Counted from the stretch's first letter, positions 485 to 31,544 are shown. The stretch is DNA of 39,028 nt from an archaeon GW2011_AR18 (GCA_000806155.1 JWKX01000016.1:1-39028), one strand, 5' to 3'. Made by a program: numbers and translations. The notes: generated by a model from the letters alone, not told the origin.

Positions 485-1942
485 TTACTTTATATTACCA
501 ATAGGAATCATTTTTATAATTGGTCTGCATATACCTGCTTTAGCAACAGAATCAATAACTAAATCAACAGATTTGTAAGCAGAACCAGATTCTTCAGCAA
601 GACCAGAATAAGAACCTGTCTTAACGTAAATACCACGAGATTCCATATCTTTTTGCAAAGACTCTCCCTTAAATTCTCTTCTAGCCTGATTACGAGACAT
701 CACTCTACCACTTCCGTGACACGTTGAGGAGAAAGTTTCATTGTCAGCTTTTTCTGTTCCAACCAAAAGATAACTTCCAGTCTCCATGCTGCCACCAATA
801 ATAACAGGAGATCCAATATCATTATATAATTTAGAAACTTCAGGATTACCAGGACCTTGAGCAAGAGTTGCACCTTTCCTGTGAACAACTAATTTTTTCT
901 TCTTACCATCAACTTTGAATTCTTGTAATCTAGCTAAATTATGAGCAACATCATAAACACAGTGCATATTCATATCTTCTGCTTTTTGTTTGAAAACTTT
1001 TTCAAAAGACTCACGAATACGATGTGTAATAACCTGCCTGTTAGCAAAAGCCATATTAGCAGCAGATGCCATAGCACTATAGTAATCCTGACCTTCATGA
1101 CTTGAAAATGGAGCACAAGATAATTCAGGATCATTAACTCTAATATTATATTTTTTCATAGCACCTTCAAAAATTTTTAAATAATCAGTAGCAACTTGAT
1201 GACCGAAACCACGAGAACCACAATGAAATGTAACCACAATCTGATCTGGAAAAATACCAAACCTTTTAGCAATTTTCTCATCTAAAATATTTTCTTTTTT
1301 TATATGCTGAATTTCAAGATAATGATTACCTGAACCTAAAGTTCCTAATTGGTCAATACCTCTTGCTCTTGCTTTTTGAGATATCTTAGAAGAATCAGCC
1401 CATTCAATCTTACCAGAACTTTCTATCCTATCTAAATCTTCCTTCCAGCCATAACCGTTATCCACACACCATTTAACACCATTATCCATAACTTCACTAA
1501 ACTGTTGATTATTAACCTTAACAAAACCTTTACAACCCACACCTGAAGGAACAGCATCATATAGTGTATTAACTAATTCTTTTATTTTAGGCTGAACATC
1601 TTTAATAGTTAAATTAGTGATTATAGTTTTCATGCCACAGTTTATATCAAATCCTACACCACCAGGAGAGATAACACCACCATTTTCTGGATCTGTAGCA
1701 ATAACCCCCCCTATACAAAAACCATACCCCCAGTGGGCATCAGGCATAGCCATAGCATATTTAACAACACCAGGAAGACAGGCCATATTAGTCAATTGAT
1801 CAAAAACACCAGCATCCATTGAATTAAGCAATTCTTTACTAGCTATAACTCTTGCTGGAACATTCATACCTTGCTTGAAAGAAGCAGGAATTTCCCATAC
1901 TGCTTCTTCTATTTGTTTTATATCTTTTGGGATATTTGACAT
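485..1942 (-). CDS. rtcB: tRNA-splicing ligase RtcB
   Basis: RtcB joins 2',3'-cyclic phosphate or 3'-phosphate ends to 5'-OH ends using GTP and Mn2+. In archaea it seals tRNA exon halves after BHB intron excision. The 485-residue protein is of normal length and has no intein. Visible motifs are PDAHWGYGFCIGG, GGVGFDINCGM (metal-binding Cys), HCGSRGFGHQ, AANMAFANRQ, YDVAHNLA, HRKGATLAQGPG and STCHGSGRVMSR, whose His (about residue 409) is the expected guanylylated residue. All metal and nucleotide ligands I can recognise are present. It sits 118 bp upstream of rtcA, and archease genes lie nearby at 3269-4097. The window itself contains intron-bearing tRNAs, its expected substrates. Confidence 0.97.
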   Translation of the reverse strand: MSNIPKDIKQIEEAVWEIPASFKQGMNVPARVIASKELLNSMDAGVFDQLTNMACLPGVVKYAMAMPDAHWGYGFCIGGVIATDPENGGVISPGGVGFDINCGMKTIITNLTIKDVQPKIKELVNTLYDAVPSGVGCKGFVKVNNQQFSEVMDNGVKWCVDNGYGWKEDLDRIESSGKIEWADSSKISQKARARGIDQLGTLGSGNHYLEIQHIKKENILDEKIAKRFGIFPDQIVVTFHCGSRGFGHQVATDYLKIFEGAMKKYNIRVNDPELSCAPFSSHEGQDYYSAMASAANMAFANRQVITHRIRESFEKVFKQKAEDMNMHCVYDVAHNLARLQEFKVDGKKKKLVVHRKGATLAQGPGNPEVSKLYNDIGSPVIIGGSMETGSYLLVGTEKADNETFSSTCHGSGRVMSRNQARREFKGESLQKDMESRGIYVKTGSYSGLAEESGSAYKSVDLVIDSVAKAGICRPIIKMIPIGNIK

Positions 1943-2936: not shown

Positions 2937-3272
2937 ATGATAGAGATAAGAGATATAGTATCAAAAATAGGAGAGAGAGGATGGTGGATTTATGAGAATG
3001 GAGTCTATGTAAGAAACCCAAATTATTCAAAAACATACGTTATATCACCATTAGATACTGATTTTAGGATATCAAGCCATAGATTAGCTATATTAATGGA
3101 ATCAGGAATAAAACCTGAAATAGAACATGAAGGTAGAGTGATAGAATTAAGATATTTAAGATTATTATTAAATGAAGTAAATATAGGAGAATTATCAATA
3201 CAGTCAAGAGAATTTTATGAAGAATTAGAAAAAAATTTACAAGATATAAGAAGTTATAGATTTGATAATTAG
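2937..3272 (+). CDS. hypothetical protein, 111 residues
   Basis: A small soluble protein of unknown family. It begins MIEIRDIVSKIGERGWWIYENGVYV and ends in a charged helical tail (REFYEELEKNLQDIRSYRF). No membrane segment, cysteine cluster or nucleotide motif is visible. The start is supported by the TATA-like box about 26 bp upstream. The gene converges on archease with a 4-bp overlap of the two stop regions. The mixed polar content and lack of low complexity suggest a genuine protein. Confidence 0.55.
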   Translation: MIEIRDIVSKIGERGWWIYENGVYVRNPNYSKTYVISPLDTDFRISSHRLAILMESGIKPEIEHEGRVIELRYLRLLLNEVNIGELSIQSREFYEELEKNLQDIRSYRFDN

Positions 3273-3691
3273 ATATCAACAATAACATGTGCTATATATT
3301 TATCTTTAGTTTTTTTAATTTCAAATTTATGTTTTGTTATTGCTTTAGCATCAGCATTTAACTGGTGTTTTTTTCTGTCAATAATCTCACCAAAACATTT
3401 TGCATTAATAGAATATTTATTATTTTTTTCAGAGATATTTATTTCAAACTTATTAAATAATAATCCTTCAGTGTCTTTAACAAATATCAATTCAGATAAA
3501 AAATCATATAATAAATCTTCAAGAGAATCTGCTGATAATTTTATAGTATAAACTGATTTATTTCCTAATGTGCTTAATTTAACCATTATTTCTTCAACAG
3601 CTAATGCTGCATTCTCGAATAGTTCATCTAAATCATTACCATAAGCCTCGAACATAACATCTGCTGTATGATCAAAGAATTTATATCTCAT
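3269..3691 (-). CDS. archease, RtcB activator
   Basis: Archease speeds RtcB guanylylation and turnover and broadens its nucleotide use. From ATG 3691 the protein is 140 residues and begins RYKFFDHTADVMFEAYG, with the metal-binding DHTAD motif at residues 7-11. It continues with LLYDFLSELIFVKDTEGLLF, KCFGEIIDRKKHQLNADAKA and the terminal VIVDI carrying the last acidic ligand. Length and every family landmark fit. ATG 3691 is preferred over TTG 3703 because it gives the classical N-terminus and has TTGAGG just upstream as a ribosome site. It overlaps the end of the upstream archease-like gene, so the pair is probably translated in a coupled way. Confidence 0.95.
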   Translation of the reverse strand: MRYKFFDHTADVMFEAYGNDLDELFENAALAVEEIMVKLSTLGNKSVYTIKLSADSLEDLLYDFLSELIFVKDTEGLLFNKFEINISEKNNKYSINAKCFGEIIDRKKHQLNADAKAITKHKFEIKKTKDKYIAHVIVDI

Positions 3692-4097
3692 TTTTTTCCT
3701 CAACTAATAAACTAATCTGAACATGGCAACCATCTTTATCTTCCTTGATCAATACATTCTTAGATATCTCTTTCACTAAAACATCAATCTCATTGCCTTT
3801 AATCTTAGAGCCTGCAACAACAGATGATAACATGTAATCATTATTTACCATGTTTATACTTAAATCCTGAACTTCAGATAGAATAAAACATTCATTTAAC
3901 AATAATTCATTTAATTTATTTATGTAATTATATAATAAATATTTCAGGTTCTGAGAACGGAACATTATAGACTTATTTATTTCATTATTCAGATTTCCTT
4001 TATAAACTGTTTTTGAGAATTCAACAGCTATTAAAGAGAAAGCCTTTTCTAAGGTTTTAGCTTCGCTTTTTAAGCTTATTTCTTGGTAATCTGCCAT
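3681..4097 (-). CDS. divergent archease paralogue lacking metal-site residues
   Basis: A 138-residue protein that lines up with the neighbouring archease over most of its length. KTLEKAFSLIAVEFSKTV matches the LDELFENAALAVEEIMV helix. LKYLLYNYINKLNELLLNE matches LEDLLYDFLSELIFVKDTE. VVAGSKIKGNEIDVLVKEIS matches the CFGEIIDRKKHQLNADAKAI region, and CHVQISLLV matches AHVIVDI. The DHTAD metal motif is absent at the N-terminus and the terminal Asp is replaced, so it cannot bind metal in the normal way. It lies directly upstream of archease, overlapping it by 11 bp. It may be a non-catalytic partner or regulator in an RtcB complex. The homology call is my alignment by eye. Confidence 0.65.
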   Translation of the reverse strand: MADYQEISLKSEAKTLEKAFSLIAVEFSKTVYKGNLNNEINKSIMFRSQNLKYLLYNYINKLNELLLNECFILSEVQDLSINMVNNDYMLSSVVAGSKIKGNEIDVLVKEISKNVLIKEDKDGCHVQISLLVEEKNEI

Positions 4098-4202
4098 TAT
4101 AAGCCTTTAAAACACTGTTATTAATGTATTTTATGATGTCACGTAGAAGTGGTAAAGATAGTAAGGTTTTTAAAGGTTATTTCCTATATAAATACTATAA
4201 AA

Positions 4203-6788
4203 ATGGCAAAAATAAAGGGACAGGGAATATTTGAAAGATATAAGAATAGAGAGAAAACTCCTAAAAAAATTCATCAACCAAAACAGCAAAACTATAGTTA
4301 CAGACCAGAAAAACATAGAACTCGCAGGTCTTTAGGATCTAAATTAAGAAGATTAGGATTAGGACTAGCATTAGTGGCTGCATTATCAATACCATTAGAT
4401 CAATATACAGGAATACCGGGATATATAGAAGGAAAAATCATAAAAACTGTTAAATCTCATTCAGAAAACGGACAATACTGGCAGGCAATACATGAAAGAG
4501 ATGCATTCAAAGCAAAGATACAAAACAGAACACCAGAAAAACATGAGGAAAACAAAGATGCATTCCCAGATACAGATTTCATAAGAGAATTTCCAGCAAC
4601 AGAAACAAATGAGATAAGCATAGAGAGTGATGACACAAACTATCCAATATATAGAAAAGCATCAACAAGCCAAAAACTATCATGCGACATACTAAATAGA
4701 GATACAAACATAATACAGATGATAGTAGCAAGAGAGGATGATGCAGCATATGATCACGGAGGAATAAATTACTGGGGAAAAATAGCTGCTGCTGCAAGAT
4801 GGATAAAAGCAGGAAGAAAAGGAAATATGCCTGGAGGATCTGGACTAGTAGAGCAAGTTGCAAAGATGGCAACACTAGATGAAAATCAGGCAAGCAAAAA
4901 CAGAAAAGGATGGAAAGGAATAAAAGAAAAATTAGAAGAGATAGTATACTCATTAGAATTAGGAGCATTACCAAGAAATGATGTAATATGTTTTTATGCA
5001 AATACATCATACTTTGCAGGAGGAAACTACGGAGTAGAAGCTGCAGCACAAGATTACTTTGGAAGATCAGCATTAGAATTAACAAAAGCAGAAGCAGCAT
5101 TCCTAGCAGTATTAGTAAAAGCACCAGGACTAAACCCTAAATTAAGAAAAATAGATATCAAAGACAAAAATGGAAATGTGAAAACATTAGATCCATTCCA
5201 GCTACAATATGATAGATATAAAAGATTTGTAGAACAATTACATAGAGATGATAAAATAAGTGAAGTGGAATATCAAGAAATGATAGATCCAGCTGCAATA
5301 ACAATATCACCAAAACAAAGAACAACAACATCAACATTCACAGGAGCATTAGAAATAGTAAAAGATGAACTGCAAAAAAGATACGGAATAGACTTATATA
5401 AAATGATGCAGGATGATAATATACCATACTCATTAATATTAAAAACAACAATAAAACATGAAGACCAATTAAGACTAGAAGCAGCAATAAAAAAAGAATT
5501 CAAGCATCCGTTTGTAGAAATAAACGGAGTATTACAACCACTAGCAGATATTGGAGGAGTTGTATTAGACAAAGAGAGAAGAGTAGTATCATTAATAGCA
5601 GGAAGAGAATATAGAGGAGCTATTGGAGAATTCAATTATGCAACAAGCAAAGATACAGCAAGTGTAGAATTAGGATCAGTTATAAAACCATTATTGTATG
5701 CATATGCGTATCAATATGAGAAAATAAATCCAAATAGTATATGGAGCGAGGAAGGAGCTGGAGTAAGAAACTGGAACGGAGAAACACATCCGCCAATGTC
5801 ATTAAGAAGAGCATTGACAGCATCAAACAATCCAATAACAGTAAATTTATGGAAACACTTATTCAAAAGAAAAAATGATAAAACAGGAAACGAACAGAGA
5901 TTCACAAAGTTCATAGAATATTTAGATGGGTTAGGATTTGATATAACAGAATATAGAAAAGCAGGACGTGAAGATAACAGCCTAGCACTAGGATCAAAAG
6001 GGGGATTAACAGCTTTAGGAATAGCAGAAGTATATTCAGCATTCAATGATGGAAAATTAAGAGATACAACAATAATATATACAATAATACTAAACGGACA
6101 GGAATATGTTATAACACCATCAGAAGAAGCAAGAGAGGTATTTGAGACAAGAACCAGAAATGCAATATTAGAAAGCTTAGAAGCACGTGCTAATGAACTA
6201 AAAGTCAAAGGATGGTGCAAGACAGGAACAGGAGGAGACAAAGCATTAAGACTAGTATGTGATGAAAAAACTGGAGATCTTGACAGGATATTATCATTAT
6301 TCACAACAAGCAAACATGGAACATTAGGACAGAGAAAATATGCAGCAACAGAATTAGGACCTGTTGTAAGAGCATATCAGGAACAGACTAGAAAAGGTGA
6401 AGTATATGATACTAGAGAGACTAAAGTGCGTACAATAGAATGCTTAGATGATGATACAATAATACCAGAAGGAAGAATATTCCAGGCAGATTTAAAAGAT
6501 ATAAACAAATTAGCAGAAATATATGATTTATGCGCATCAGTACAAACACCAAGATCAGAAAGAAAAATAGGATACTATAGTGCAACAGCTTCAGCATACC
6601 AAGCTCTAGCAGAAGATTTAAAATGCGAAGGAGAAACTGCCAGAGCAGGAGTATTCCTAAGCAATGCAATATTATTCTATAAAAGAATGGCAAGAGAGTC
6701 AGATGGCAGTCAAAAAGAGACGGCACTAGGAATGATACAGGATATAGAAACACATAAGGATGATCCTCCAACTGATTGTACAGAATAA
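4203..6788 (+). CDS. class A penicillin-binding protein (GT51 transglycosylase plus transpeptidase)
   Basis: A bifunctional peptidoglycan synthase of the PBP1A type. After a basic tail and one membrane helix (about residues 47-65) comes a GT51 domain. It has AREDDAAYDHGG (catalytic Glu about 178), GGSGLVEQ (211), KEKLEEIVYSLELG, and FYANTSYFAGGNYGVEAAA followed by YFGRSALELTKAEAAFLA. The transpeptidase domain keeps SVIK (Ser about 492, Lys 495), SNN (541-543) and KTGT (673-676), so both active sites look intact. A helical C-terminal tail of about 130 residues follows. I chose ATG 4203; GTG 4149 would add 18 residues, but a TATA-like TTTTTAAA at 4167-4174 lies inside that extension. Codon use matches neighbouring plus-strand genes. 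Such enzymes are bacterial; finding one in an archaeal contig is the notable point. Confidence 0.92.
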   Translation: MAKIKGQGIFERYKNREKTPKKIHQPKQQNYSYRPEKHRTRRSLGSKLRRLGLGLALVAALSIPLDQYTGIPGYIEGKIIKTVKSHSENGQYWQAIHERDAFKAKIQNRTPEKHEENKDAFPDTDFIREFPATETNEISIESDDTNYPIYRKASTSQKLSCDILNRDTNIIQMIVAREDDAAYDHGGINYWGKIAAAARWIKAGRKGNMPGGSGLVEQVAKMATLDENQASKNRKGWKGIKEKLEEIVYSLELGALPRNDVICFYANTSYFAGGNYGVEAAAQDYFGRSALELTKAEAAFLAVLVKAPGLNPKLRKIDIKDKNGNVKTLDPFQLQYDRYKRFVEQLHRDDKISEVEYQEMIDPAAITISPKQRTTTSTFTGALEIVKDELQKRYGIDLYKMMQDDNIPYSLILKTTIKHEDQLRLEAAIKKEFKHPFVEINGVLQPLADIGGVVLDKERRVVSLIAGREYRGAIGEFNYATSKDTASVELGSVIKPLLYAYAYQYEKINPNSIWSEEGAGVRNWNGETHPPMSLRRALTASNNPITVNLWKHLFKRKNDKTGNEQRFTKFIEYLDGLGFDITEYRKAGREDNSLALGSKGGLTALGIAEVYSAFNDGKLRDTTIIYTIILNGQEYVITPSEEAREVFETRTRNAILESLEARANELKVKGWCKTGTGGDKALRLVCDEKTGDLDRILSLFTTSKHGTLGQRKYAATELGPVVRAYQEQTRKGEVYDTRETKVRTIECLDDDTIIPEGRIFQADLKDINKLAEIYDLCASVQTPRSERKIGYYSATASAYQALAEDLKCEGETARAGVFLSNAILFYKRMARESDGSQKETALGMIQDIETHKDDPPTDCTE

Positions 6789-6860
6789 AACAACAACTAG
6801 AAAGGTTTATATTTAATTCTTATAGCCTAAAAATCAAGGGCTCGTAGCTCAGCTTGGTGG

Positions 6861-6897
6861 AAACTCTGTAGCTTAAGAAAGTTATAAAGTTGCCAAA
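6861..6897 (+). other. tRNA-Lys intron 1, in the D arm (37 nt)
   Basis: A bulge-helix-bulge can be drawn. Central 4-bp helix TGGT (6855-6858) with GCCA (6892-6895), 5' bulge GGA, 3' bulge AAA, inner helix AACT/AGTT (6862-6865/6888-6891). Cutting each bulge after its second base rebuilds GAGC, the exact partner of the D-stem GCTC. The outer helix is weak, so this is a relaxed motif. Confidence 0.8.
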
Positions 6898-6934
6898 AGC
6901 AATAGACTCTTAATCTATGGGTCGTGGGTTCAAA

Positions 6935-6986
6935 ATTGAATCTTTTTAGAAAAAAGCTTCGGCAAAAACTAAAGAGAGAATGAAAG
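6935..6986 (+). other. tRNA-Lys intron 2, in the T loop (52 nt)
   Basis: The T stem GTGGG/CCCAC is the outer helix. TTCA (6929-6932) pairs with TGAA (6981-6984) as the 4-bp central helix, with bulges AAA (6933-6935) and AGT (6985-6987). Cutting after the second base of each bulge yields the canonical T loop TTCAAAT. This is a textbook BHB at a non-canonical tRNA position. Confidence 0.88.
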
Positions 6987-7034
6987 TCCCACCGAGCCCG
7001 CTAACATTATAAATCTTATTGAAATGGTAAAACA

Positions 7035-8021
7035 ATGACTATTGACCTAAGATTGGAAAGAGAAACAGAATATGCAGAATTTTCTCCAGGAGCAGCAATA
7101 TTAAACCTAGGACTGCACTTACCACATGATATAGGCAGGGTAGTCAAAGACCTAATAGCAATATCTGATGATAAAGATTTAATAATTTATGATACAGATG
7201 GAAAAGAAGTTGCAAGCCAAGATATTGGAACAAGCATAAAAGAATTAACATTCACAGGATTTACAAGACAATACTTACCACTTGATGGATATTTACTTGG
7301 TTTAACAGATAATAAAACAATAGAGATAATAAGACTAATAATAGACTTACATCCTGATGAGATAGAATTTAATAAAATAGAAGATTTAAGATTCAGGATA
7401 TCAATGCATAGAAATTATACATTAGATGATAACCCAGAACATATAATAAATGGGATGAACAGAATAATATGGCCATTATATGCAAGTACACAAGATGCAT
7501 TACATGCATTCTCTGAAAAAGAAATGGATAGAATGAATGGAATGAACCTGCAGTTCAATAATAAGTTTATGACTAAAGGAAGAACACCAAGATTATTCGC
7601 TATAGGATATGATGACATAAGAACAGAATATAATAAAAAACCACAAGCACATCCGTATGTACTATTAAAAGGAACACAAGAACTTTCCTCTTTAGCATGG
7701 CTAGACAGAATAAAAGGTGGAAAAACAAAAGATCCGAGAAGAAATAATATAAGAGTACCATATGATTCAGTATCAGTAGCACCAACATTTACAGATCGTA
7801 GTTTCCTAGCAATAGACAAGAATCGAAGATTATGGTACTTGCCTGACAATAAAGGAAAAAACCATATTGATAAAGAAGGGAATTTAAAATTAGAAGATTT
7901 TGGAATAACAGGACATAGAATAGGGATAATATCATCAACACAATACAGAGATGAAAGACCATTATTATATTTGACATATGATGATAGATCACTTGTAAGA
8001 TGCAGATTAAGAGAAAGATAA
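7035..8021 (+). CDS. hypothetical protein, 328 residues
   Basis: An unrecognised soluble protein placed between two intron-containing tRNA genes. Short repeated strand-like phrases such as DLIAISDDKDLIIYDTDGKEVA, PRLFAIGYDDIRTEY, RSFLAIDKNRRLWYLPD and RPLLYLTYDDRSLVRCRL suggest a WD/PQQ-like beta-propeller of irregular blades, but I cannot name a family. There is no signal peptide or membrane segment. A TATA-like TTATAAAT at 7008-7015 lies about 24 bp before the ATG, supporting this start and independent transcription. Codon use (A-ending) matches other plus-strand genes. Confidence 0.6.
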   Translation: MTIDLRLERETEYAEFSPGAAILNLGLHLPHDIGRVVKDLIAISDDKDLIIYDTDGKEVASQDIGTSIKELTFTGFTRQYLPLDGYLLGLTDNKTIEIIRLIIDLHPDEIEFNKIEDLRFRISMHRNYTLDDNPEHIINGMNRIIWPLYASTQDALHAFSEKEMDRMNGMNLQFNNKFMTKGRTPRLFAIGYDDIRTEYNKKPQAHPYVLLKGTQELSSLAWLDRIKGGKTKDPRRNNIRVPYDSVSVAPTFTDRSFLAIDKNRRLWYLPDNKGKNHIDKEGNLKLEDFGITGHRIGIISSTQYRDERPLLYLTYDDRSLVRCRLRER

Positions 8022-8063: not shown

Positions 8064-8182
8064 GCCCTGGTCGTCTAGCCCGGTCAAGGATAGAGCCCTC
8101 TCGAAACAAACTTTTTATAAAAAGGTTTGAACAAAAATTCAGGAGAAAGGCTCTGACGCGAGTTCGAATCTCGCCCGGGGCG
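8064..8182 (+). tRNA. tRNA-Glu (anticodon CUC) with a canonical 37/38 intron
   Basis: Acceptor GCCCTGG (8064-8070) pairs with CCGGGGC (8175-8181), with discriminator G 8182. The D stem is GTCT/GGAT. The anticodon stem GAGCC (8093-8097)/GGCTC (8149-8153) encloses CTCTCG plus A after splicing, giving anticodon CTC at 8100-8102. The T arm is GCGAG-TTCGAAT-CTCGC. A TATA-like TTTTATAAA sits about 29 bp upstream. CCA is not encoded. The mature length is 75 nt after removal of the 44-nt intron. Confidence 0.95.
8104..8147 (+). other. tRNA-Glu intron (44 nt) between positions 37 and 38
   Basis: The BHB uses the anticodon stem as outer helix. CTCT (8098-8101) pairs with GGAG (8142-8145), with bulges CGA (8102-8104) and AAA (8146-8148). 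Cuts after the second bulge bases give a 7-base anticodon loop. The intron interior folds into a CAAAC/GTTTG hairpin. Confidence 0.9.
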
Positions 8183-16966: not shown

Positions 16967-18064
16967 ATGGAGTTTATTATACAAAGCGCATTGGAAAGTG
17001 CACAAAACAACATAAATGAAGACATAAATATAGGGCATGCTAATATCAAGGTATTTGGTTGCGGTGGCGGCGGAAGCAACATGACAACATGGTTGTATAA
17101 GAAAGGAGTAAAAGGAGCTGAAATTATTGCTGCTAATACTGATAAACAACACTTAGACATGATGAGTGCTGACAAAAAAATTCTAATCGGAAGAGATCTA
17201 ACAAGAGGACTTGGAGCAGGTGGATATGCTAACGTAGGTATGGAAGCTGCTAAAGAACAACTTGCAGAAATTAAAGATTCATTAAAGAATGCTGATATGG
17301 TATTCATCTGTGCAGGAATGGGTGGAGGAACAGGAACAGGTTCAGCACCAGTAGTAGCACAAGCTGCAAGAGATACAGGAGCAATCGTAATTGGAACAGT
17401 AACAACACCGTTCACAATTGAGAGGGCAAGAGTAGACAAGGCAGAATTTGGATTACAACAATTAAGAAATGTATCAGATACTGTAATTGTAATAGACAAC
17501 AACAGACTAGTACAGATTGCTGGAAACTTACCAGTACAACAAGCATTTGCAGTAGCAAACGAACTAGTTGCAACAATGATAAAAGGAATAGTAGAAATCA
17601 TTGCAGTACCTAGCCTAGTAAACTTGGACTACGCAGATGTAAAGGCTATCATGACAAATGGTGGAGTATCTGTAGTTGGAGTTGGAGAGTCTGATGGTGA
17701 GAGAAGAGTTGAAGAAGCAACAAAAAGAGCTTTGACAAACCCATTACTTGATGTATCATACAAGGGAGCAACAGGAGCATTAATCCATGTAACTGGAGGA
17801 CCTGATATGACATTAGATGAAGTAAACAGATGCGGTGAGTTAGTAACTGAATCATTAGATGCTGACGCAAACTGTATCTGGGGTGCAAGAGTAGATGATG
17901 TAATGAAAGGAAAAGTAAGAGTCATGACCATCATCACTGGAGTACAAAGCCCATATGTTCTAGGAAAAGCAGCATCACCACAGAATGCAAGCCAGAGAAT
18001 GGAAAAGTCCAGAACAATGAGCAGAGAACTAGGAATAGATGTAGTACACGGAAAGTATTACTGA
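16967..18064 (+). CDS. ftsZ: cell division protein FtsZ
   Basis: A tubulin-like GTPase that forms the division ring. The 365-residue protein has the N-terminal VFGCGGGGSNM nucleotide loop, the signature GGGTGTGSA (about 119-127), PFTIERARVDKAEFGL, and the T7 synergy loop NLDYADVKAIM that completes the GTPase site in the next subunit. ARVDDVMKGKVRVMTIITGV is the usual end of the C-terminal domain. A short tail with a basic SQRMEKSRTMSREL stretch follows in place of the long linker and terminal peptide. Ribosome-site-like GAGGAGA and GGGGGAGA lie just upstream. Unlike most genes here it has a long leader, so it is probably regulated at RNA level. Confidence 0.98.
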   Translation: MEFIIQSALESAQNNINEDINIGHANIKVFGCGGGGSNMTTWLYKKGVKGAEIIAANTDKQHLDMMSADKKILIGRDLTRGLGAGGYANVGMEAAKEQLAEIKDSLKNADMVFICAGMGGGTGTGSAPVVAQAARDTGAIVIGTVTTPFTIERARVDKAEFGLQQLRNVSDTVIVIDNNRLVQIAGNLPVQQAFAVANELVATMIKGIVEIIAVPSLVNLDYADVKAIMTNGGVSVVGVGESDGERRVEEATKRALTNPLLDVSYKGATGALIHVTGGPDMTLDEVNRCGELVTESLDADANCIWGARVDDVMKGKVRVMTIITGVQSPYVLGKAASPQNASQRMEKSRTMSRELGIDVVHGKYY

Positions 18065-23348: not shown

Positions 23349-24230
23349 ATGATAAGTATAATAATTACAGCATACAAAGAACCAAGAACAATAGGAAAAG
23401 CAATAGAGGCTTTCAAGAACCAAAAAATAAAAGAGAAACATGAGATAATAGTAATAGCTCCAGATGAAGAGACAATAAATGAAGCGAAAAAATACAAAGT
23501 AAAGATAATAAAAGATGAAAATAAAGGAAAACCTTCTGCACTAAATCTAGCATTTGAGAAAACAAGAAAATCTGATATTTTAATATTAACAGACGGAGAT
23601 GTATATGTTTCAGAGAATTCTGTAAATGAGTTAGTAAAACAATTCAGAGATGAAAAAGTTGGCGCAGCAACAGGAAGACCAATATCATTAAGTGATAAAA
23701 ATACAATGTTAGGATACTGGAGTCATCTGTTAACAGATGTAGGAGCACATGAGACAAGAACTAATTTAGTAAGAAAAGAAAAGTTCATAGTATGTTCAGG
23801 ATATCTAATGGCTATAAGAAACAAAATAGTTGATGTAATACCACCAGATTGTTTAAGTGATGATGCAGTAATATCAAATTTAATATATGCAAAAGGATAC
23901 AATACAACTTACAGTCCAGAAGCAAAAGTATATATAAAATACCCAGATAATTTCAAAGACTGGATGAAACAGAAAAGAAGAAGTGCAGGGGGATATTTAC
24001 AGATAAAAAAATATGCATACAGAAGCGATGGAATGAGAAGTTTCACAAAAGAAAGTTCTGGAATAATAAGAGCATTAAGATATCCATCTAATATTAAAGA
24101 ATTCTACTGGACAATAATATTAGTAATAGCAAGATTATATTTATGGATGATAATATTCATAGACTTCAAAATATTAAGAAGAAAACTATTCAAAGAAACA
24201 GGATGGGAAAGAATAGAGAGCACTAAATAA
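23349..24230 (+). CDS. GT2 glycosyltransferase with C-terminal membrane segment
   Basis: A family 2 (GT-A fold) transferase. SIIITAYKEPRTIGKAIEAF is the N-terminal nucleotide-binding strand and helix, KGKPSALNLAFE follows, and LTDGDVYV supplies the DxD-type metal motif. SDDAVISNLIYAKGY (acceptor-side acid) and MKQKRRSAGGYLQ complete a QxxRW-like region of processive or membrane GTs. A hydrophobic helix near residues 245-265 may anchor it. At 293 residues it is probably a polyprenyl-linked sugar transferase on the inner face of the membrane. It has its own TATA-like TTTATAAAT 26 bp before ATG 23349. It converges on the NUDIX gene with an 8-bp overlap. Confidence 0.85.
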   Translation: MISIIITAYKEPRTIGKAIEAFKNQKIKEKHEIIVIAPDEETINEAKKYKVKIIKDENKGKPSALNLAFEKTRKSDILILTDGDVYVSENSVNELVKQFRDEKVGAATGRPISLSDKNTMLGYWSHLLTDVGAHETRTNLVRKEKFIVCSGYLMAIRNKIVDVIPPDCLSDDAVISNLIYAKGYNTTYSPEAKVYIKYPDNFKDWMKQKRRSAGGYLQIKKYAYRSDGMRSFTKESSGIIRALRYPSNIKEFYWTIILVIARLYLWMIIFIDFKILRRKLFKETGWERIESTK

Positions 24231-24633
24231 TTTTTATTAATTTAAAAAATTTAATTAAGTCTTTCTTATAAGATTCTGGAAACTTATGTTGCTCAAGATT
24301 TGATAGAAAAAATTCTACACTTAAATGTTTAATTTCACTAATTTCATCAACCTGAATTCTTTCCTTGCCAGCTATTACTTTAGCTTTATACAAAATTAAC
24401 AGATTATTAATATTTTCATAAGAAATAAATATCTCCCCAATATAATCAGAAATTTTAACTTCAACATCAAGATTAGTCTCTTCTTTTAATTCACGTTTAA
24501 GAGCATCAATATCAGACTCATCTCTTTCAACATGCCCACCTGGAAGACTATACATCCCAATATAAGGATTCTTTCTACGTTTTACACATAATAATTTATT
24601 ATTATTAAAAATAACAGCATTAACTATTCGCAT
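24223..24633 (-). CDS. NUDIX hydrolase
   Basis: A pyrophosphohydrolase acting on nucleoside diphosphate-linked compounds. From ATG 24633 the protein has 136 residues. It begins MRIVNAVIFNNNKLLCVKRR and carries the complete NUDIX box in GGHVERDESDIDALKRELKE followed by ETNLDV (GX5EX7REUXEE). WxLPGG-type spacing is present as YSLPGG. An upstream in-frame ATG (24762) exists, but the added residues are hydrophobic and unrelated. The TATA-like box at 24655-24663 lies 26 bp from 24633, so this start is strongly favoured. Substrate may be an 8-oxo-dNTP or a nucleotide sugar; unknown. Confidence 0.9.
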   Translation of the reverse strand: MRIVNAVIFNNNKLLCVKRRKNPYIGMYSLPGGHVERDESDIDALKRELKEETNLDVEVKISDYIGEIFISYENINNLLILYKAKVIAGKERIQVDEISEIKHLSVEFFLSNLEQHKFPESYKKDLIKFFKLIKII

Positions 24634-24654
24634 AAATAAAACTATTACAATAAG

Positions 24655-24663
24655 TTTAAATAT
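24655..24663. promoter_or_regulatory. single TATA box shared by two divergent leaderless genes
   Basis: TTTAAATAT is centred 26 bp from the NUDIX ATG (24633, minus) and 28 bp from the GT39-like ATG (24687, plus). No other TATA-like sequence fits either gene. One near-palindromic box therefore seems to serve both directions. Confidence 0.55.
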
Positions 24664-24686
24664 CATTCTAAAACCTAAATTCTCAG

Positions 24687-26046
24687 ATGAACAGAGAGAA
24701 AATAAAGAACTGGATGAAAGAAAAACATAATTCATTATTTCTATTAATATTATTATTTGCACTAGGAATCAGATTATTATACTTAAATTCTAATGCGGCA
24801 GTATGGTGGGATGAGGCAAGCTATCTATCAACAGCAAAACACTGGTTCTTTAATGTACAGTATACACCAAACCCGCAAAATGCAATATTCTTTCCATTAT
24901 TATTAGGAATATTATTTAAAATAGGGTTAAATGAGATAATAGTAAAATTCCTAACAGTAGTAATACCATCAGCAATTCCAACCAGACTTTTTAGCATTAT
25001 TCTTCCAAGTATTAAGCATATATTATTTCTGGAAATGGTACAAACACAAGAAAAACATCAACATATACTTAGCAGGATTATTTCTAGGACTAGCATTCAT
25101 GACAAGAACACAGAGCGTCTTATTAGTAGGAATTTATATAATATTCTTATTGATAACAGATGGAATAATAAAAACAATAAAAAATAAATATCTATGGATA
25201 ACAGGAATAATAAGTTTCATAACAGTATCACCATACTTAATATATAATTACATAAATTATAAAAATGTACTGGCATTTACAGCGGGATATAGCGGACAGG
25301 TAGAGGCAAAAGTACCATTCGGATGGCATATATTAAATTTCTTAAAAAGCTATACAGGATTAGATACAATAAGCTGGATATATTTCATATTATTCATAAT
25401 AGGATTAGTTACACTAATAGACCTAATATTAGGATTTGATCAGATAAGAAAAGACAATATAAAAATAAAAGCTGACCTAATGAATGTAATAATAATGCTA
25501 GTAGTATTAGCATTTTTCATATTCTATATAAGGATAGCAGAAGACAGATGGATAATACTTACAGCAATACCAATGTTCTATTTCATAGGAAAAGGGATAT
25601 ATTATATTTTAGGATTTTTCAAGAACATGAAAACAAGTGTTAAAGTCTTTATAATATTAATAATATTAATACTTGGAGCATATTCACAATTAACAACAGC
25701 GGATATATTGATACAACAAAAAAAAGATTCATACTTACAGGTAAAACAAGCATCAATATGGATGAAAGAGAACACAAACACTAATGATAAGATAGTAAGT
25801 AATTCTGAACCACAGATGACATATTATACAGAAAGAAAAATAGAAACATGGGGAGTGAATGAAACAGAATTCAATGATATATGGGAAAGAGAGAAACCAA
25901 AATATTATGTAATATCAGGATTTGAGAGACATAATGACTGGGTGTATACATATCCACAAAACCATCAAGACAAATTAGTGCCAGTACAAAGCTATACAAT
26001 AGATGGAAAGAATCCAATATTAGTTATTTATGAAGCAAAACATTAA
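24687..26046 (+). pseudogene. GT39/PMT-like membrane glycosyltransferase, broken by internal deletion and frameshift
   Basis: The first frame begins as a normal GT-C enzyme: a membrane helix, then AAVWWDEASYLSTAKHWF (the DE catalytic-loop motif of PMT/ArnT enzymes) and FFPLLLGILFKIG. It runs to NEIIVKFLTVVIPSA at about 24978. Sense then continues in another frame, open from 24964: DFLALFFQVLSIYYFWKWYK, LAGLFLGLAFMTRTQSVLLV, several membrane helices, and a soluble exterior end with QMTYYTERKIETWG and YVISGFERHNDWV. The one or two helices expected between (perhaps 45-60 residues) are absent. Intact, it would move a sugar from a lipid carrier to a surface acceptor. Fragment calls: 24687-25187 and about 24964-26046. 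Confidence 0.7.
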
Positions 26047-27211
26047 CACTAGAATTAAGCATCTTAGAACAATTACTTCTAGAAAATCTTTCAGTTGATT
26101 TAACAATCTTAGAATGATTCTTAACTTTGAAATCAGAATTCAAAATAACTTCAATCTTAGAAGCGAAATCTTTAAGATCGTAAGGCTTAGCCAAAAGTCC
26201 ATTAACATTATCAATAACAATCTCAGAAGGACCAGCAGAATCATCCCAGGCAACAACAGGACAACCACAAGCCATAGCCTCAACTGGAACAATACCGAAA
26301 TCTTCCTTAACAGAAGGATAAGCAAAAACTTCAGCAAGATTATTCAATGCAACAAGATCCTTATCAGGAATAAAATCTAAAAATTTAATATTATCCTCAA
26401 CACCAATATCCTTAGCGATATTTATTAGTTCATTCTTGTAAAAGTTATCAATCTTACCAGAGAATACAATTAAAAAATCTTTATCCTTAAGATATCTTAA
26501 AGATTCAACAAGAAGCTCATAACGTTTATCAGGAATCAACCTACCATGAGAGATAATAAATTTCTTATTAATATTATATTTTTTAAGAACATATTCACAA
26601 GATTTCCTAGATAAAGGCTTGAATATCTCATTAATAGTAGGATAGCATACAACAGGTTTAATATTATAAATTTTTTCAGCTCTGTTCTTAGTATAAACAC
26701 TGTTAACAAAAACAGCATCAGCATTCTTAACAACTTTAATATCATCAGGACGCATCAACCTGCCAAGAAAAATACCAGCAACAAGAGCAATAATCCTCCC
26801 AACATCAAAACCGCCAACATATTTCATCCTCTTATCATCCATATACAAGAAATTAGGAGGGTGATGAAGGTATATGATATAAGGGATCTTATAATGTTTC
26901 TTCATGTAATAACATAATCTAGAACAGAGATAACTATGACTTATAAACAAAGATGAATCTTTATATCTATTTAATGAAGCCCTATTAAGAAAAGTCCACA
27001 TAATCTTCAAGAAACCAAATTTAAAAAATTTACGAGAATGCTCATCAACATTAATACCAGGAAACATCTTCTCTGAAATAGACTTATCAAAAGAGCCAAA
27101 AGAGACAGTAACATCAAAATCCTTCTTTAAAGATTCAGCCTGAAAGGCCATAACTCTCTCAAGACCGCCAAAACCGTGAAGAAAATCATAGATAATAACA
27201 ACTTTTTTCAT
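26024..27211 (-). CDS. GT4-family glycosyltransferase
   Basis: A retaining GT-B enzyme, 395 residues. IYDFLHGFGGLERVMAFQAE is the N-terminal glycine-rich acceptor loop. ISHGRLIPDKRYELLVESL is the start of the C-terminal donor domain. VFAYPSVKEDFGIVPVEAMACGCPVVAW-type sequence (here SVKEDFGIVPVEAMACGCPV) gives the EX7E donor motif. It is the last gene of a six-cistron operon, overlapping the methyltransferase upstream by 4 bp (ATGA). It probably adds a hexose to a lipid-linked glycan in the cytoplasm. It converges on the broken GT39 gene with a 23-bp overlap. Confidence 0.92.
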   Translation of the reverse strand: MKKVVIIYDFLHGFGGLERVMAFQAESLKKDFDVTVSFGSFDKSISEKMFPGINVDEHSRKFFKFGFLKIMWTFLNRASLNRYKDSSLFISHSYLCSRLCYYMKKHYKIPYIIYLHHPPNFLYMDDKRMKYVGGFDVGRIIALVAGIFLGRLMRPDDIKVVKNADAVFVNSVYTKNRAEKIYNIKPVVCYPTINEIFKPLSRKSCEYVLKKYNINKKFIISHGRLIPDKRYELLVESLRYLKDKDFLIVFSGKIDNFYKNELINIAKDIGVEDNIKFLDFIPDKDLVALNNLAEVFAYPSVKEDFGIVPVEAMACGCPVVAWDDSAGPSEIVIDNVNGLLAKPYDLKDFASKIEVILNSDFKVKNHSKIVKSTERFSRSNCSKMLNSSVNVLLHK

Positions 27212-27732
27212 TTTACCACCTTCAATTCAGCAATAACCTCAGAAGATGGGAGAATCCAGCAAAAAAATCTTTCATAAACAGCAGGAGATAAATTAACAAT
27301 AGGATTCATAAAAAAATTCAAAAAAGTAAAAGATAGTCTAGAGAAATTCAGTTTACTATAAACAACAACGAATTTAGGAGTATCATAATAACACTTATCT
27401 GTAAAAAAATCAAAAGTGAAATAAGAGAAATATCTTTTATGAGTAGGATCACGATAGTTAACACCGCAGGAAAAATGAGGAACATGAATTTTAATAATGC
27501 CATTAGGTTTAGTAATACGGTGCAATTCTTTCATGACTTTAATCAGATCATCAACATGTTCTAAAATGTGAGAACAGAAAACCTCATCAAACTCATTGTT
27601 CTTGAAAGGATAAGGAAACTTGTTCAAAGAGTGGACAACATCAACACCTTTTAGTTTAAGATCATCAAGATTAACCCAACCTTCAGACTTAGACCTGATA
27701 TCAGGACCACAACCAATATTAAGTTTTTTCAT
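27208..27732 (-). CDS. SAM-dependent methyltransferase (Methyltransf_11 type)
   Basis: A 174-residue class I methyltransferase. KKLNIGCGPDIRSKSEGWVN is motif I. SLNKFPYPFKNNEFDEVFCS and HILEHVDDLIKVMKELHRIT are the post-motif regions typical of enzymes found in surface polysaccharide clusters, followed by KPNGIIKIHVPHFS. In such clusters these enzymes usually methylate a sugar or act near chain termination. It overlaps both operon neighbours by 4 bp, which argues for coupled translation and a role in the same glycan. Confidence 0.88.
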   Translation of the reverse strand: MKKLNIGCGPDIRSKSEGWVNLDDLKLKGVDVVHSLNKFPYPFKNNEFDEVFCSHILEHVDDLIKVMKELHRITKPNGIIKIHVPHFSCGVNYRDPTHKRYFSYFTFDFFTDKCYYDTPKFVVVYSKLNFSRLSFTFLNFFMNPIVNLSPAVYERFFCWILPSSEVIAELKVVK

Positions 27733-28548
27733 CTTTGAGCCCTCATAAGCCAGCCTTTCTCTGTTGATAAATTACGATTCTTGAATTTAGAGACAATAGA
27801 CCCATAAATAAAGATTATCATCCAGAAGAATAATGAAAAAGCTCCCTTGAATGAACGAGTCTTATGAATATTTATGATATAAAAGAATAATAAAGGAATA
27901 TAAAAATTGAAGAAAGTTATATGAACATTATATTTAGAGAAAACCTGATCACGAGCCTTAGCTGTACGAGTTTTCTGTTTTAGAATATCCTTAAAAGACA
28001 TAGTATAAGTTAGAGTATGCATCCTTGGAAGCTTATGATCATCAACTACAACAACTTTGTAATCATTATTTAAAATTTCCAGACTTCTTTCAAAATCATC
28101 ACCAAGAGTAGTATTTTCCTTATATAACTTTTTCCTGAAAACATTAACAAGGAAAGGAAAACCATTCTTTGAACTATCAACAATCCTTAAACCATCAACA
28201 ACTTTAGTGTATTTCTTCTTAAGGAATTCAATCCATAAAAAATTTAAAATCCTTAGGATCATTCACTCTGAAAATCCAGTCAGCATCATGGACAATAATA
28301 ATATCACCCTTAGCTAACTTAATTATTTTATTAATAACAGCGTGCTTGCCTTTTCTTTCATTAAGATGGACATGCTTGACGAATTTATATTTATCAACAA
28401 TCTTAGATGTATTATCAGAAGAACCATCATTGCCTACTATTACTTCAATACCAGGAAAATGTTTTTTAAGATTTTTTAAATTATCAAGAACAGTACCAAT
28501 ATGCTTCTCCTCATTATGAGCAGCAATCAAAAAAGTTACTTTTTTCAT
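27729..28548 (-). pseudogene. GT2 glycosyltransferase split by a +1 frameshift
   Basis: Frame one (28228-28548) starts MKKVTFLIAAHNEEKHIGTV and includes VIVGNDGSSDNTSKIVDKYK and IIVHDADWIFRVNDPKDFKF before stopping. Frame two (27729-28262) continues the same protein: WIEFLKKKYTKVVDGLRIVD, LGDDFERSLEILNNDYKVVV (acceptor-side acids), KQKTRTAKARDQVFSKY (KQ..R motif) and two membrane helices. The change of frame falls at a run of six T (coding strand, about 28231-28240). One fewer T would give a single 270-residue GT2 enzyme. It may be a sequencing error, a true mutation or a frameshift site. Position in a tightly overlapping operon argues that the gene was recently functional. Confidence 0.75.
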
Positions 28549-29285
28549 AGTTTATCGTAAATTTTAACAATGAACCTGAAAGGAGAGTATATTAACCTTA
28601 GCCTTACAATAGCTAAAAACATTTCCTTGGAAGCTCTCTTAACATTAAGACTTGAACCAGGAGAGTCACTCCATACTGTAGGAATTTCCTTAATAGAAAA
28701 ACCATTTCTTTTGAACTGATATAATAAGTCAACATCAAAAGCCCAACGAGTAATACCTAAATGCTGAAGAACTTTCTTTAATCTATCTTTTTTGAAGAGC
28801 TTCGCACCGCACTGTGAATCATGAATCTCAATACCAAACAATAATCTGACTAAGAAATTAAAAGCCCTGGAAGCAACCCTCCTTAAAACAGGCTGTCTAG
28901 GACTAACTTTAGCACCATCAATCCAACGAGAGGCAATAATAGAATCATAACCATCAATATTCCTGACAAGCTCATAATAAGCATCAGCTTTAGTAGAATT
29001 ATCAGCATCAACAAAACCAATCAATTTTCCTTTAGCTGATCTGAAACCTTCAATAACTGCACCGCCTTTACCAATAGCTTCCTTGAAATCAAGAAATCTG
29101 ACTGAAGAATATTTTTTAGAGAAATTTTTAACAACAACTAACGTATTATCTTTACAACCATTAAGAACAACAATAATCTCATAATTTTTCTTATAAACAT
29201 TATTAAAAAATTTAGCATAATCATCCAATGTAGAAGATATCCTCTTCTCTTCATTATATGCTGGGATTATTATTGATAGTTCCAT
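28545..29285 (-). CDS. GT2 dolichyl-phosphate hexose synthase-like enzyme
   Basis: A DPM1/ALG5-type transferase of 246 residues. MELSIIIPAYNEEKRISSTL opens the GT-A fold. GKGGAVIEGFRSAKGKLIGF and VDADNST give the metal motif, and IIASRWIDGAKV, SRAFNFLVRLLFG, HDSQCGAKLFKK and WAFDVDLLYQFKRNG follow the family order exactly. It would make a polyprenyl-phosphate sugar used by GT-C enzymes on the outer face. It overlaps the flippase start by 32 bp and the downstream GT2 by 4 bp. Confidence 0.92.
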   Translation of the reverse strand: MELSIIIPAYNEEKRISSTLDDYAKFFNNVYKKNYEIIVVLNGCKDNTLVVVKNFSKKYSSVRFLDFKEAIGKGGAVIEGFRSAKGKLIGFVDADNSTKADAYYELVRNIDGYDSIIASRWIDGAKVSPRQPVLRRVASRAFNFLVRLLFGIEIHDSQCGAKLFKKDRLKKVLQHLGITRWAFDVDLLYQFKRNGFSIKEIPTVWSDSPGSSLNVKRASKEMFLAIVRLRLIYSPFRFIVKIYDKL

Positions 29286-30546
29286 ATCTGTTCCTATATA
29301 AAGTATAAAACATCATCAATATAAACATTAGCATCATAACAACAGTAAGAGAATTAATAACCTGCCTCAATGAATCATGAAATAATACAATAGAAACTAT
29401 CTCAATAATATTAAAAAATAATAAAATAAATATAAAACTAATCCTATTAACAGATAGATTATACAAAGCTAAAAGATATGATAATGAGAAGAATGACATC
29501 AATAAAGCAAAAGTAGCAATATAAGATGTAATTTCAAGATATTCAGATCCAAACAATATCATCACAATAAGTTTAGGGAGAACAAAATAACCAACACTAA
29601 TAGCTGCAGAGATAAGTGCAACAATAGATAATGCCTTGTTAAGAATATGGACATTAGGCTTTTTCATAGCATCCATCTCAGCAACTTTAGGGAACATAAC
29701 CATAGAAATTGATAAAGATGCAAAAAATACAATACGACCAAGAAGAGCAGCAGCAGCATAGAAACCAGACGAAATATCATTAAAGTAGTGCTTCACAAGA
29801 ATGACATCAAGGCTATAGAAAGCAGTAAGAGATAACATTGTAATAAGAACAGGGAAAGAATATTTGTAAATAGACTTAATCTCAATATCCTCAACTTTTT
29901 TAGATAAATATCTTTTTTTAAGAGGCCAAAGTGATATTATGAATGGTATAATATAGGATAGCACTATACCAATAAATGCGCCAACAATACCAAAACCTAA
30001 CATAACTAATAAGAAACCGAAAAATAATTTTGTAATAGCCTCAATTACGATATTAATACCAAGAGGTTTGAAAGTTTGTAAGCCTTGTAATATACCACGA
30101 TTTATAGGTAATAAAAATATAAAAAAAACTAATATAGACATAACTATAACAAGCGATATTCCGTATTTTAAATTTAAAAATGGGAATATAGTATTATACC
30201 AAAAAAAACCGCTTATTATTGCTAATATAATACCATATAAAGATAATTTCTTCAGAGAATAATAAAAAAGATATCTAATCTTGTTTTCCTGATCATTAGC
30301 CTTGAACTTAGCCACAAACTTCGATAGAGTAGTCTGAATAACATTGAAAGGAACTAATAATATATACAATAAAGAGAGTATAGCACCTAAAGCACCATAA
30401 TCAGCAGGACCTAAAATACGGCCCATACCAAGATGATAAATATAACCAGAAGCATTAGCAATCATAGTAGCTGTAAAAAGGATAATACCATCTCTAATTA
30501 AAGAATCATTCTTATCATATTTCAAAAATTTTTTAATTATATCCAT
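29254..30546 (-). CDS. polysaccharide/oligosaccharide flippase (Wzx/MOP superfamily)
   Basis: A 430-residue protein with about twelve membrane helices and no large loops. The N-terminal region contains GIILFTATMIANASGYIYHL, GRILGPADYGALGAILSLLY and FVAKFKANDQENKIRYLFYY, standard for O-antigen-type flippases. Later come SLTAFYSLDVILVKHYFND and MVMFPKVAEMDAM. It would carry the lipid-linked glycan across the membrane. Its start overlaps the transferase gene upstream by 10 bp and its end overlaps the GT2 by 32 bp, so it is in the middle of the operon. Confidence 0.92.
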   Translation of the reverse strand: MDIIKKFLKYDKNDSLIRDGIILFTATMIANASGYIYHLGMGRILGPADYGALGAILSLLYILLVPFNVIQTTLSKFVAKFKANDQENKIRYLFYYSLKKLSLYGIILAIISGFFWYNTIFPFLNLKYGISLVIVMSILVFFIFLLPINRGILQGLQTFKPLGINIVIEAITKLFFGFLLVMLGFGIVGAFIGIVLSYIIPFIISLWPLKKRYLSKKVEDIEIKSIYKYSFPVLITMLSLTAFYSLDVILVKHYFNDISSGFYAAAALLGRIVFFASLSISMVMFPKVAEMDAMKKPNVHILNKALSIVALISAAISVGYFVLPKLIVMILFGSEYLEITSYIATFALLMSFFSLSYLLALYNLSVNRISFIFILLFFNIIEIVSIVLFHDSLRQVINSLTVVMMLMFILMMFYTLYRNRYGTINNNPSI

Positions 30547-31544
30547 ATCAAGCTCGATATTATAAGTTCAATAATCATGAAAGAATAGACAATCTGATTT
30601 TCTGTAAATCTTCCTGTCCTAGTAAATAAATGAGTAAGTGAATAAACATGCTTACCATGCAAAGACATTATCTTGCCATCCTTAAAATAACCATAATTGT
30701 GAGCGTGCAACCTAGCTCTTGATTTTAATATTAGTTCAAGAATAAAAGGGATACTGCATATAAGAGCAGCTCTCTCAAGGTTACCAACAATAGCAATGAC
30801 AGCAATTATAGCACCAAGAAGATATGTCAGAGAATCACCAGGAAGAATCTTAGCAGGAGACCTATTATAGATAAAAAATGCAATAAGAGAACAGAATGTA
30901 AGAAGAGCAATTAGAGCGGCTACATAAGAATCATTAACGTAAGCGTAAAGACCAAGCATACCAGTATAAACAATACCCATACCTGCTTCCAAGCCATTGA
31001 AACCTGCAAGCATATTAACCATATTAGATGAACCTACAAAACCAAGAGGGACAAGAATCAAAGCATAAAAAATACCGAAATCAACAACACCAATAAATGG
31101 CAATCCCATATCTGTAGTCCCTATTTTTATCACCATAAGAGGAACTGCAGCAATAAGAGTAAGTAAAGGTTTCTGCCATTGTTTAAGACCAACAGAACCA
31201 TCATGAGACTTATCAATAATAAGATCATCAAGAAAACCAATAATAGTAACAGTAAGAATAGATAGAGCAGCACTAAATAATACAACAAGATTATAGTTAT
31301 TCAAAACCAAACCAATAGTCGTAAAACCTGAAAAAAAAGTCCTTACAAATAAAAACAACATCAAACCAGCCATAATACCAAACAAAACAGCAAGACCACC
31401 TGAAATCGGAACCAAAGGCTTAGATTCTTTATTCTGATCCTTAACAACCAAACCAATCTTCTTCAAATAACGAATAAGCCATGGAGTGATAAATAATACT
31501 ACAAAAAAACTAAAGATACCATATAAAAATACGAAATATTTCAT
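30537..31544 (-). CDS. polyprenyl-phosphate HexNAc-1-phosphate transferase (GPT/Alg7-MraY superfamily)
   Basis: The first committed enzyme of lipid-linked glycan synthesis, moving a HexNAc-1-phosphate from UDP-sugar to polyprenyl phosphate. From ATG 31544 it has 335 residues and about ten helices. Superfamily marks are KPLVPISGGLAVLFG, IIGFLDDLIIDKS (the DD pair), SSNMVNMLAGFNGLEAGMGI and NRSPAKILPGDSLTYLLGA, with KSRARLHAHNYGYFK at the C-terminus. The NxxNMLAGFNGLE form is closer to archaeal/eukaryotic Alg7 than to MraY. ATG 31544 is preferred over 31586 because a TTTTTAA box lies about 26 bp upstream. It is the first gene of the operon running to 26024. Confidence 0.92.
   Translation of the reverse strand: MKYFVFLYGIFSFFVVLFITPWLIRYLKKIGLVVKDQNKESKPLVPISGGLAVLFGIMAGLMLFLFVRTFFSGFTTIGLVLNNYNLVVLFSAALSILTVTIIGFLDDLIIDKSHDGSVGLKQWQKPLLTLIAAVPLMVIKIGTTDMGLPFIGVVDFGIFYALILVPLGFVGSSNMVNMLAGFNGLEAGMGIVYTGMLGLYAYVNDSYVAALIALLTFCSLIAFFIYNRSPAKILPGDSLTYLLGAIIAVIAIVGNLERAALICSIPFILELILKSRARLHAHNYGYFKDGKIMSLHGKHVYSLTHLFTRTGRFTENQIVYSFMIIELIISSLIWI

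Follow-up and report, generated by a model that had tools for sequence, protein, structure and literature searches.

A class A penicillin-binding protein of a DPANN archaeon in which the murein precursor pathway was not found

We describe a gene for a class A penicillin-binding protein (PBP), joining a GT51 glycosyltransferase to a transpeptidase, in a DPANN archaeon of the Woesearchaeota group, a tiny, symbiont-like organism. The PBP is almost certainly a genuine, working archaeal gene. We further think it likely that throughout one archaeal clade an active class A PBP is retained although no murein precursor is made, either to build the wall of another organism or to act on an archaeal lipid-linked substrate. 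The window (the whole stretch of 39,028 nucleotides from archaeon GW2011_AR18 that was analysed) is the entire contig C16 of a genome of 822,540 bases and 17 contigs (completeness 90%, contamination 1.45%); other genomes are given by our handles.

The PBP gene occupies positions 4203..6788 of the plus strand and encodes 861 amino acids from the ATG at 4203. Its frame is open from an in-frame GTG at 4149, holds no internal stop and closes with a stop codon ending at 6788. A candidate TATA-like box, read directly from the plus strand (TTTTTAAAGG, 4167-4176), lies about 27-36 bp 5′ of ATG 4203, making this codon the likely start. (Residues are counted below from GTG 4149; subtracting 18 gives the numbering from ATG 4203.) A whole-genome search returned this gene as the only GT51 gene of the window genome, with the same GT51 span. 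Both domains score over their curated Pfam cut-offs: the glycosyltransferase (PF00912 'Transgly', E 2.7e-28) at residues 185-332 (4701..5144, plus strand) and the transpeptidase (PF00905, E 1.6e-10) at residues 471-696 (5559..6236, plus strand).

Active site residues were compared in an alignment of 50 sequences (14 DPANN proteins, 35 bacterial PBPs and E. coli PBP1b). All 50 carry the catalytic base motif, E196-D197 in the window PBP (4734..4739) and E233-D234 in PBP1b. The motif G229-G-S-G-L-V-E-Q236 (4833..4856) has G232 for T267 of PBP1b, E235 for Q270, and Q236 corresponding to Q271, while in the second Glu helix, E260-K261-x-x-E264 (4926..4940), E260 takes the place of R286 and K261/E264 equal K287/E290. 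On the transpeptidase side, the SxxK motif with nucleophile and base (S510-V-I-K513, 5676..5687) and the SxN motif (S559-N-N561, 5823..5831) are invariant, and K691-T-G-T694 was located at 6219..6230 by the same alignment (all on the plus strand). A sequence-only reading of this DNA had named the GT51 motifs (catalytic Glu, GGS, second Glu helix) together with SxxK, SxN and KTGT and had called the protein intact. The alignment bears this out: E196, G229-G-S231, E264 and all three transpeptidase motifs are in place, the protein is full length, and each catalytic residue of both domains is kept.

Relative to PBP1b, the window protein retains E233, D234, H240, S266, Q271, K274, K287, E290, K355 and R372 in the glycosyltransferase and S510/K513, S572/N574 and K698-TGT in the transpeptidase. 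The pocket residues Q271/K274 are Q236/K239 here, and K324 and R356 correspond to K355 and R372, the pair that tunes the general base; the roles of E233, K355, R372, S510 and K513 in the E. coli enzyme have been described (PMC8119973). The glycosyltransferase departs from PBP1b at three positions, with G for T267, E for Q270, and E or Q for R286. The changes Q270E and R286E/Q are carried by the window, G003, G004, G009 and G137. R286 is invariant in 36/36 bacterial proteins, in which Q270 is Q save for a few M, and it is also kept by the f49 relatives of the window PBP.

The predicted structure agrees with the assignment. In a Foldseek search with the model (mean pLDDT 72; mostly about 80-95 in both catalytic cores, low near KTGT), class A PBPs rank first, with S. 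aureus PBP2 (3dwk) at E 1e-19, and they also come top in a sequence search of the PDB. Domain order, catalytic residues and predicted fold are thus like those of bacterial class A PBPs (TIGR02074; S. aureus PBP2 3dwk/2olu; E. coli PBP1b). As judged from these comparisons, chance is excluded as the origin of the domain and motif match. The window PBP nevertheless differs from the bacterial proteins in the substitutions T267G, Q270E and R286E/Q, in scoring far under the NCBIfam cut-off (168.8 bits against a curated 508.75 for TIGR02074, PBP_1a_fam; G004 reaches 241.9 and G277 225), in C-terminal helices of its own, and in belonging to an organism in which neither a lipid II pathway nor SEDS/class B partners were found. 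The N-terminus has a basic tail and a single stretch of weak hydrophobicity (mean hydropathy 1.34 over residues 71-89). The C-terminal extension (6468..6773, plus strand), helical in the predicted model, is confined to the window's family: a profile built from four family members matched only those members and a GenBank copy of one of them, and found neither a bacterial PBP nor any other protein of the window genome. A C-terminal domain shared across the clade was considered and dropped, the extensions of families f1 (the window's) and f49 having no significant profile similarity.

The surroundings of the gene are archaeal. To its left, all on the minus strand, lie a gene at 485..1942, which we take to be RtcB-like from its sequence and its archease neighbours (homologues in G003, G004 and G009 at 79-86% identity), an archease at 3269..3703 (Pfam E 4.9e-43 and synteny), and archease-2 at 3681..4097, a divergent tandem paralogue (Pfam Archease E 2.8e-8 and synteny) and the conserved left neighbour of the PBP. 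Archease-2, which is tied to the PBP locus in the window's family, evolves faster than archease (38-77% versus 59-74% identity). To the right, on the plus strand, are a tRNA-Lys(CTT) at 6838..7000 with two putative introns (D-loop and T-loop), recognised by ARAGORN once spliced by hand, and a tRNA-Glu(CTC) at 8064..8182 with an anticodon-loop intron, recognised with introns allowed; ARAGORN in default mode and Rfam found neither. Between them a 328-residue ORF (7035-8021, plus strand) has no Pfam or NCBIfam match and is not conserved beside the PBP in relatives.

The order RtcB, archease, archease-2, PBP is common to the window, G003, G004 and G009, four genomes of one family, and archaeal-type EF-1alpha and ribosomal S10 come next on the 3′ side of the PBP in G003 and G009. 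In G008, a congener of these two, archease-2 and EF-1alpha are separated by 137 bp, with neither a PBP nor a remnant of one; this empty site is most simply a loss. The PBP gene is dispensable and was probably lost cleanly in G008.

Could the gene nevertheless come from a contaminating bacterial contig, or be a decaying relic of a recent transfer? In favour of contamination, GT51 is viewed as a bacterial marker (PMC3541169), and another 'archaeal' match, the PBP of G209 (C43, L072), does resemble it: its contig is short, its neighbour is a bacterial EF-G-like gene, and it branches inside CPR, so that it is likely CPR contamination in a DPANN bin. Since G209 fails them, the tests for contamination are able to fail. 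The window PBP passes them, with synteny to archaeal genes in four genomes, EF-1alpha and S10 adjacent, an empty site in a sister, and an archaeal clade in two trees. Against a relic stand a frame without an internal stop and catalytic residues that are invariant at 20-40% identity. We therefore consider both origins very improbable; relaxed decay in particular is ruled out by the intact frames and invariant catalytic residues. The sequence-only reading had judged the gene archaeal from its composition and from adjoining tRNAs with archaeal introns. Its GC is indeed close to that of its neighbours, the Glu intron is real and the Lys introns are likely, and the synteny, the empty site and the separate clade now carry the same judgement further.

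GT51 genes are sparse in these archaea, being present in 5/103 genomes of the window's order, in 15/371 genomes sampled across the phylum and in 16/242 genomes of the order containing G137 and G177. (A single-sequence scan of genome contigs returned no relatives; an alignment query did.) The phylogeny that the sequence-only reading had proposed placed the window PBP among DPANN proteins. In a careful tree it groups with G003, G004, G009 and G137 (bootstrap 100, SH-aLRT 96), and this group joins G177/G277 (bootstrap 99, SH-aLRT 95). In a quick tree, from which the worst long branches were dropped and to which three more members were added, ten DPANN proteins (families f1, f30, f49 and f123) split from all the bacteria sampled (SH-aLRT 93). 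By these trees, the window PBP belongs to a DPANN clade of 10 genomes in four families, apart from the sampled bacteria. The PBPs of G106, G007, G172, G136, G175 and G382 fall outside this clade or are unplaced, the last five being long-branched and their placement unreliable. A scan of viral contigs gave one weak GT51-like match only (E 2e-6, 23% identity) and thus no evidence for a viral carrier.

The PBP changes much faster than the genes around it. Between G003 and G009, of the same genus, identity is 95% for EF-1alpha, 89% for S10, 77% for archease-2, 74% for archease and 40% for the PBP. The window and its relatives share 79-82% identity in RtcB and 28-31% in the PBP; within the whole family the PBP ranges over 28-40%, against 79-86% for RtcB and 95% for EF-1alpha, and both catalytic sets are invariant. 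Family f49 behaves likewise, with PBPs 30-35% identical and most direct syntenic neighbours 53-89%. Conservation is highest in the glycosyltransferase domain (34-44% between the window and family members, versus 27-31% in the transpeptidase half) and lowest in the linker and C-terminus, and the glycosyltransferase residues E196, E264, Q236, K239, K261 and S231 are kept across the DPANN clade. The pattern points to purifying selection that holds the chemistry fixed and to very fast evolution in the rest of the protein, a combination also seen in proteins of partner interaction.

We searched the window genome for the enzymes that would supply such a PBP. No Mur ligase (PF08245, Mur_ligase_M) and no EPSP/MurA family member (PF00275) was found in it or in the PBP-positive genomes G003, G004, G007 and G009. 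The phmmer queries E. coli MurB-G, MurI, MurJ, MraY, UppP, FtsW, FtsI and MltG had no match in the window genome, nor was a class B PBP found there by phmmer, whereas the controls EF-Tu, L1, TsaD, IspB and FtsZ were all found. Against the archaeal Ddl and MraY equivalogs of the pseudomurein system, scores stay well below the cut-offs (Ddl-like, 50.1 versus 500 bits; MraY-like, 38.8 versus 450 bits), and a GT4/MraY-superfamily protein at 30537-31586 reaches 60 bits against the 192-bit MraY cut-off. A MOP-type transporter is encoded at 29254-30546 of the window contig, and the E. coli MurJ query matches nothing. A Ddl-like ATP-grasp (C6:39276-40271) was considered as part of a pathway and rejected: the sequence-only reading had suggested looking for Ddl, and one is present, but it fails to track the PBP, being absent in the PBP-positive G003 and G004 and present in the PBP-negative G002 and G008. 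Of 16 DPANN genomes with a PBP, ten likewise lack any Mur ligase, among them G106, which is complete and in one contig. Because precursor enzymes were not found, the making of own murein by a known route is rejected on gene content. The murein-like polymer that had been suggested for this organism is accordingly left unsupported as a product of its own synthesis by that route, the searches for MurA, Mur ligases, MurG, MurB, MurJ and FtsW all being negative. A predation toolkit of the GH23 type was also rejected: the window genome has no SLT/GH23 domain (PF01464), and no peptidoglycan-binding or hydrolase domain is among the families listed, 25 of 29 in one scan, for its 57 predicted secreted proteins.

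Several other features of these genomes deserve mention. Window positions 29254-31586 and 23349-28548 resemble a surface-glycan type cluster, with the GT4 phosphoglycosyltransferase, the MOP transporter and several glycosyltransferase-like ORFs. The window genome has two FtsZ genes (window 16967-18064; G000 C15:8914-10035) and a type II/IV secretion ATPase split by an intein with a LAGLIDADG-like domain (G000 C11:25413-29921; L042:5413-9921). MurA/EPSP-family genes with E values of 1e-89 to 1e-116 occur in DPANN with no or one Mur ligase (G188:C9:4199-5434; G327:C24:7905-9140; G277:C14:19184-20377; G177:C31:31674-32864).

Another DPANN genome of the window's class, G381, bears most of the murein precursor pathway on contigs with archaeal-type genes (loci L178, C2:1-10000; L074, C2:10000-29900; L180, C7:18000-31273). 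One contig encodes MurA, a MurB-like protein, MurG, MraY, a MurF-M23 fusion, FemAB, MurC, a monofunctional GT51 and a MOP transporter, together with TruD, a YGR210-type GTPase and a KaiC-family ATPase. In the fusion (L074:4077-5816, minus strand), a MurF-like Mur ligase has a C-terminal M23 peptidase domain, so that a single polypeptide would both make precursor and cleave wall. MurE shares a contig with topoisomerase VI-B, RIO1 kinase and a KRR1/PNO1-type KH protein. Separate MurD and Ddl were not found in G381. From this gene content, G381 is a possible archaeal peptidoglycan maker.

An intact PBP without detectable lipid II synthesis implies that the donor comes from outside or is something else, and the enzyme probably acts on a bacterial partner's material or on some archaeal substrate. 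We tentatively favour, at somewhat less than an even chance, an accessory surface enzyme whose substrate would be the lipid II or nascent peptidoglycan of a bacterial partner. Anchored at the archaeal surface as an accessory to the partner interaction, the PBP would draw on an attached bacterium for lipid II, or for nascent glycan strands bearing D-Ala-D-Ala stems, either where the two cells touch or from lipids acquired from the host. GT51 would then lengthen the glycan, E196 acting as base, and S510 would cross-link or trim the stems. In this way the partner's wall might be sealed again or remodelled around the contact, or be used as an anchorage; the rapidly evolving flanks and family-specific C-terminal helices may tune partner specificity. 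The complete transpeptidase site favours a D-Ala-D-Ala stem, of which bacterial peptidoglycan is the only known source. Patchy distribution, clean loss and fast flanks, as in partner-interaction genes, also argue for a bacterial partner. The family-specific C-terminal extension fits adaptation, and use of ordinary peptidoglycan fits the PBP of G106 (one contig, 100% complete, a Mur-less DPANN), which lies outside the clade and has a bacterial-type active site. Some Woesearchaeota and Pacearchaeota have been proposed to live on or prey on bacteria by means of GH23-type murein enzymes (PMC8204110, PMC9723730).

The same reading is weakened by geometry, as lipid II would sit in the partner's membrane and the enzyme in that of another cell, by the weak hydrophobicity of the predicted anchor, and by the families listed for the secreted proteins, where the lack of a hydrolase or peptidoglycan-binding domain is odd for remodelling. 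Most cultured DPANN live on archaea, and we know of no host for the window's lineage. The donor-pocket changes T267G, Q270E and R286E/Q would suit another substrate, and the main and strong rival is that the archaeon's own polyprenyl-pyrophosphate-linked oligosaccharide is polymerised to a surface glycan, which the transpeptidase joins to peptide or protein. For an enzyme presumably anchored in the archaeon's membrane a same-membrane substrate is natural. The altered positions are near-invariant in the sampled bacteria, the PBP adjoins a cis-prenyltransferase-like gene in f49 genomes, and the GT4/MraY-superfamily and MOP-type genes share the window contig. In this reading the GT4-type phosphoglycosyltransferase and other glycosyltransferases would make the oligosaccharide and the contig's MOP flippase would export it. 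Against the new substrate, full SxxK/SxN/KTGT motifs imply a peptide resembling D-Ala-D-Ala, for which no synthesising enzyme is known in this organism, the GT4 protein is far from the MraY cut-off, f49 relatives retain R286, and clean loss in a same-genus sister speaks against a structural coat; we regard it as a serious but less than probable explanation.

The loss in G008 likewise suggests no structural wall, and so counts against a thin murein coat of the archaeon's own, polymerised from scavenged lipid II that arrives with bacterial host lipids. Some DPANN are thought to take lipids from their hosts, and an intact polymerase with an absent precursor pathway would be expected of such a coat; the proteins for upkeep of a sacculus (hydrolases, SEDS, MltG, peptidoglycan-binding) were not detected in our searches, and we consider this coat improbable. 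There is, finally, the idea that only the transpeptidase/carboxypeptidase half matters, as a secreted or surface DD-peptidase with the GT51 domain kept for binding. Invariant SxxK/SxN/KTGT motifs and an altered donor pocket would agree with it. However, the catalytic residues of the glycosyltransferase are kept in the clade too, and that half is the better conserved, making a pure DD-peptidase improbable; its proposed roles (trimming bacterial peptidoglycan, modifying antibiotics or feeding D-alanine to the cell) each share that small likelihood.

Among known systems, the GH23 murein lytic transglycosylases of Woesearchaeota and Pacearchaeota (PMC8204110, PMC9723730) are likewise peptidoglycan enzymes in DPANN without a murein pathway, but they cut peptidoglycan and belong to another family, whereas the window PBP is of the polymerase and cross-linker type. 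Archaeal peptidoglycan hydrolases that kill bacteria (PMC12352652) are also archaeal proteins aimed at bacterial walls, but hydrolases rather than synthases. Pseudomurein of Methanobacteriales and Methanopyrales (PMC11915815) is an archaeal cross-linked glycopeptide wall; its Mur-ligase-like enzymes are absent from the window genome, and the text of that paper on pseudomurein biosynthesis does not mention PBPs or transpeptidases. The DPANN peptidoglycan genes published so far are GH23-type lytic enzymes and hydrolases (PMC8204110, PMC9723730, PMC10936187, PMC11537232, PMC12352652). The open-access literature held no earlier report of class A PBPs in archaea (subscription journals and preprints lay outside this search), so the novelty is provisional.

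An earlier study put GT51 forward as a genomic marker for peptidoglycan producers: the presence of GT51 and that of peptidoglycan correlate at 0.963, and of 101 archaea examined none had the minimal gene set for peptidoglycan (PMC3541169). Here a complete GT51-transpeptidase is inherited in archaea unable to make lipid II by any known route, and either outcome, if true, would overturn the rule by which GT51 denotes a peptidoglycan maker. If the enzyme is active on bacterial peptidoglycan, it would be direct evidence at the molecular level that some DPANN have bacterial hosts, a question of long standing; if it is active on something else, it would reveal a new substrate for a main antibiotic-target enzyme family.
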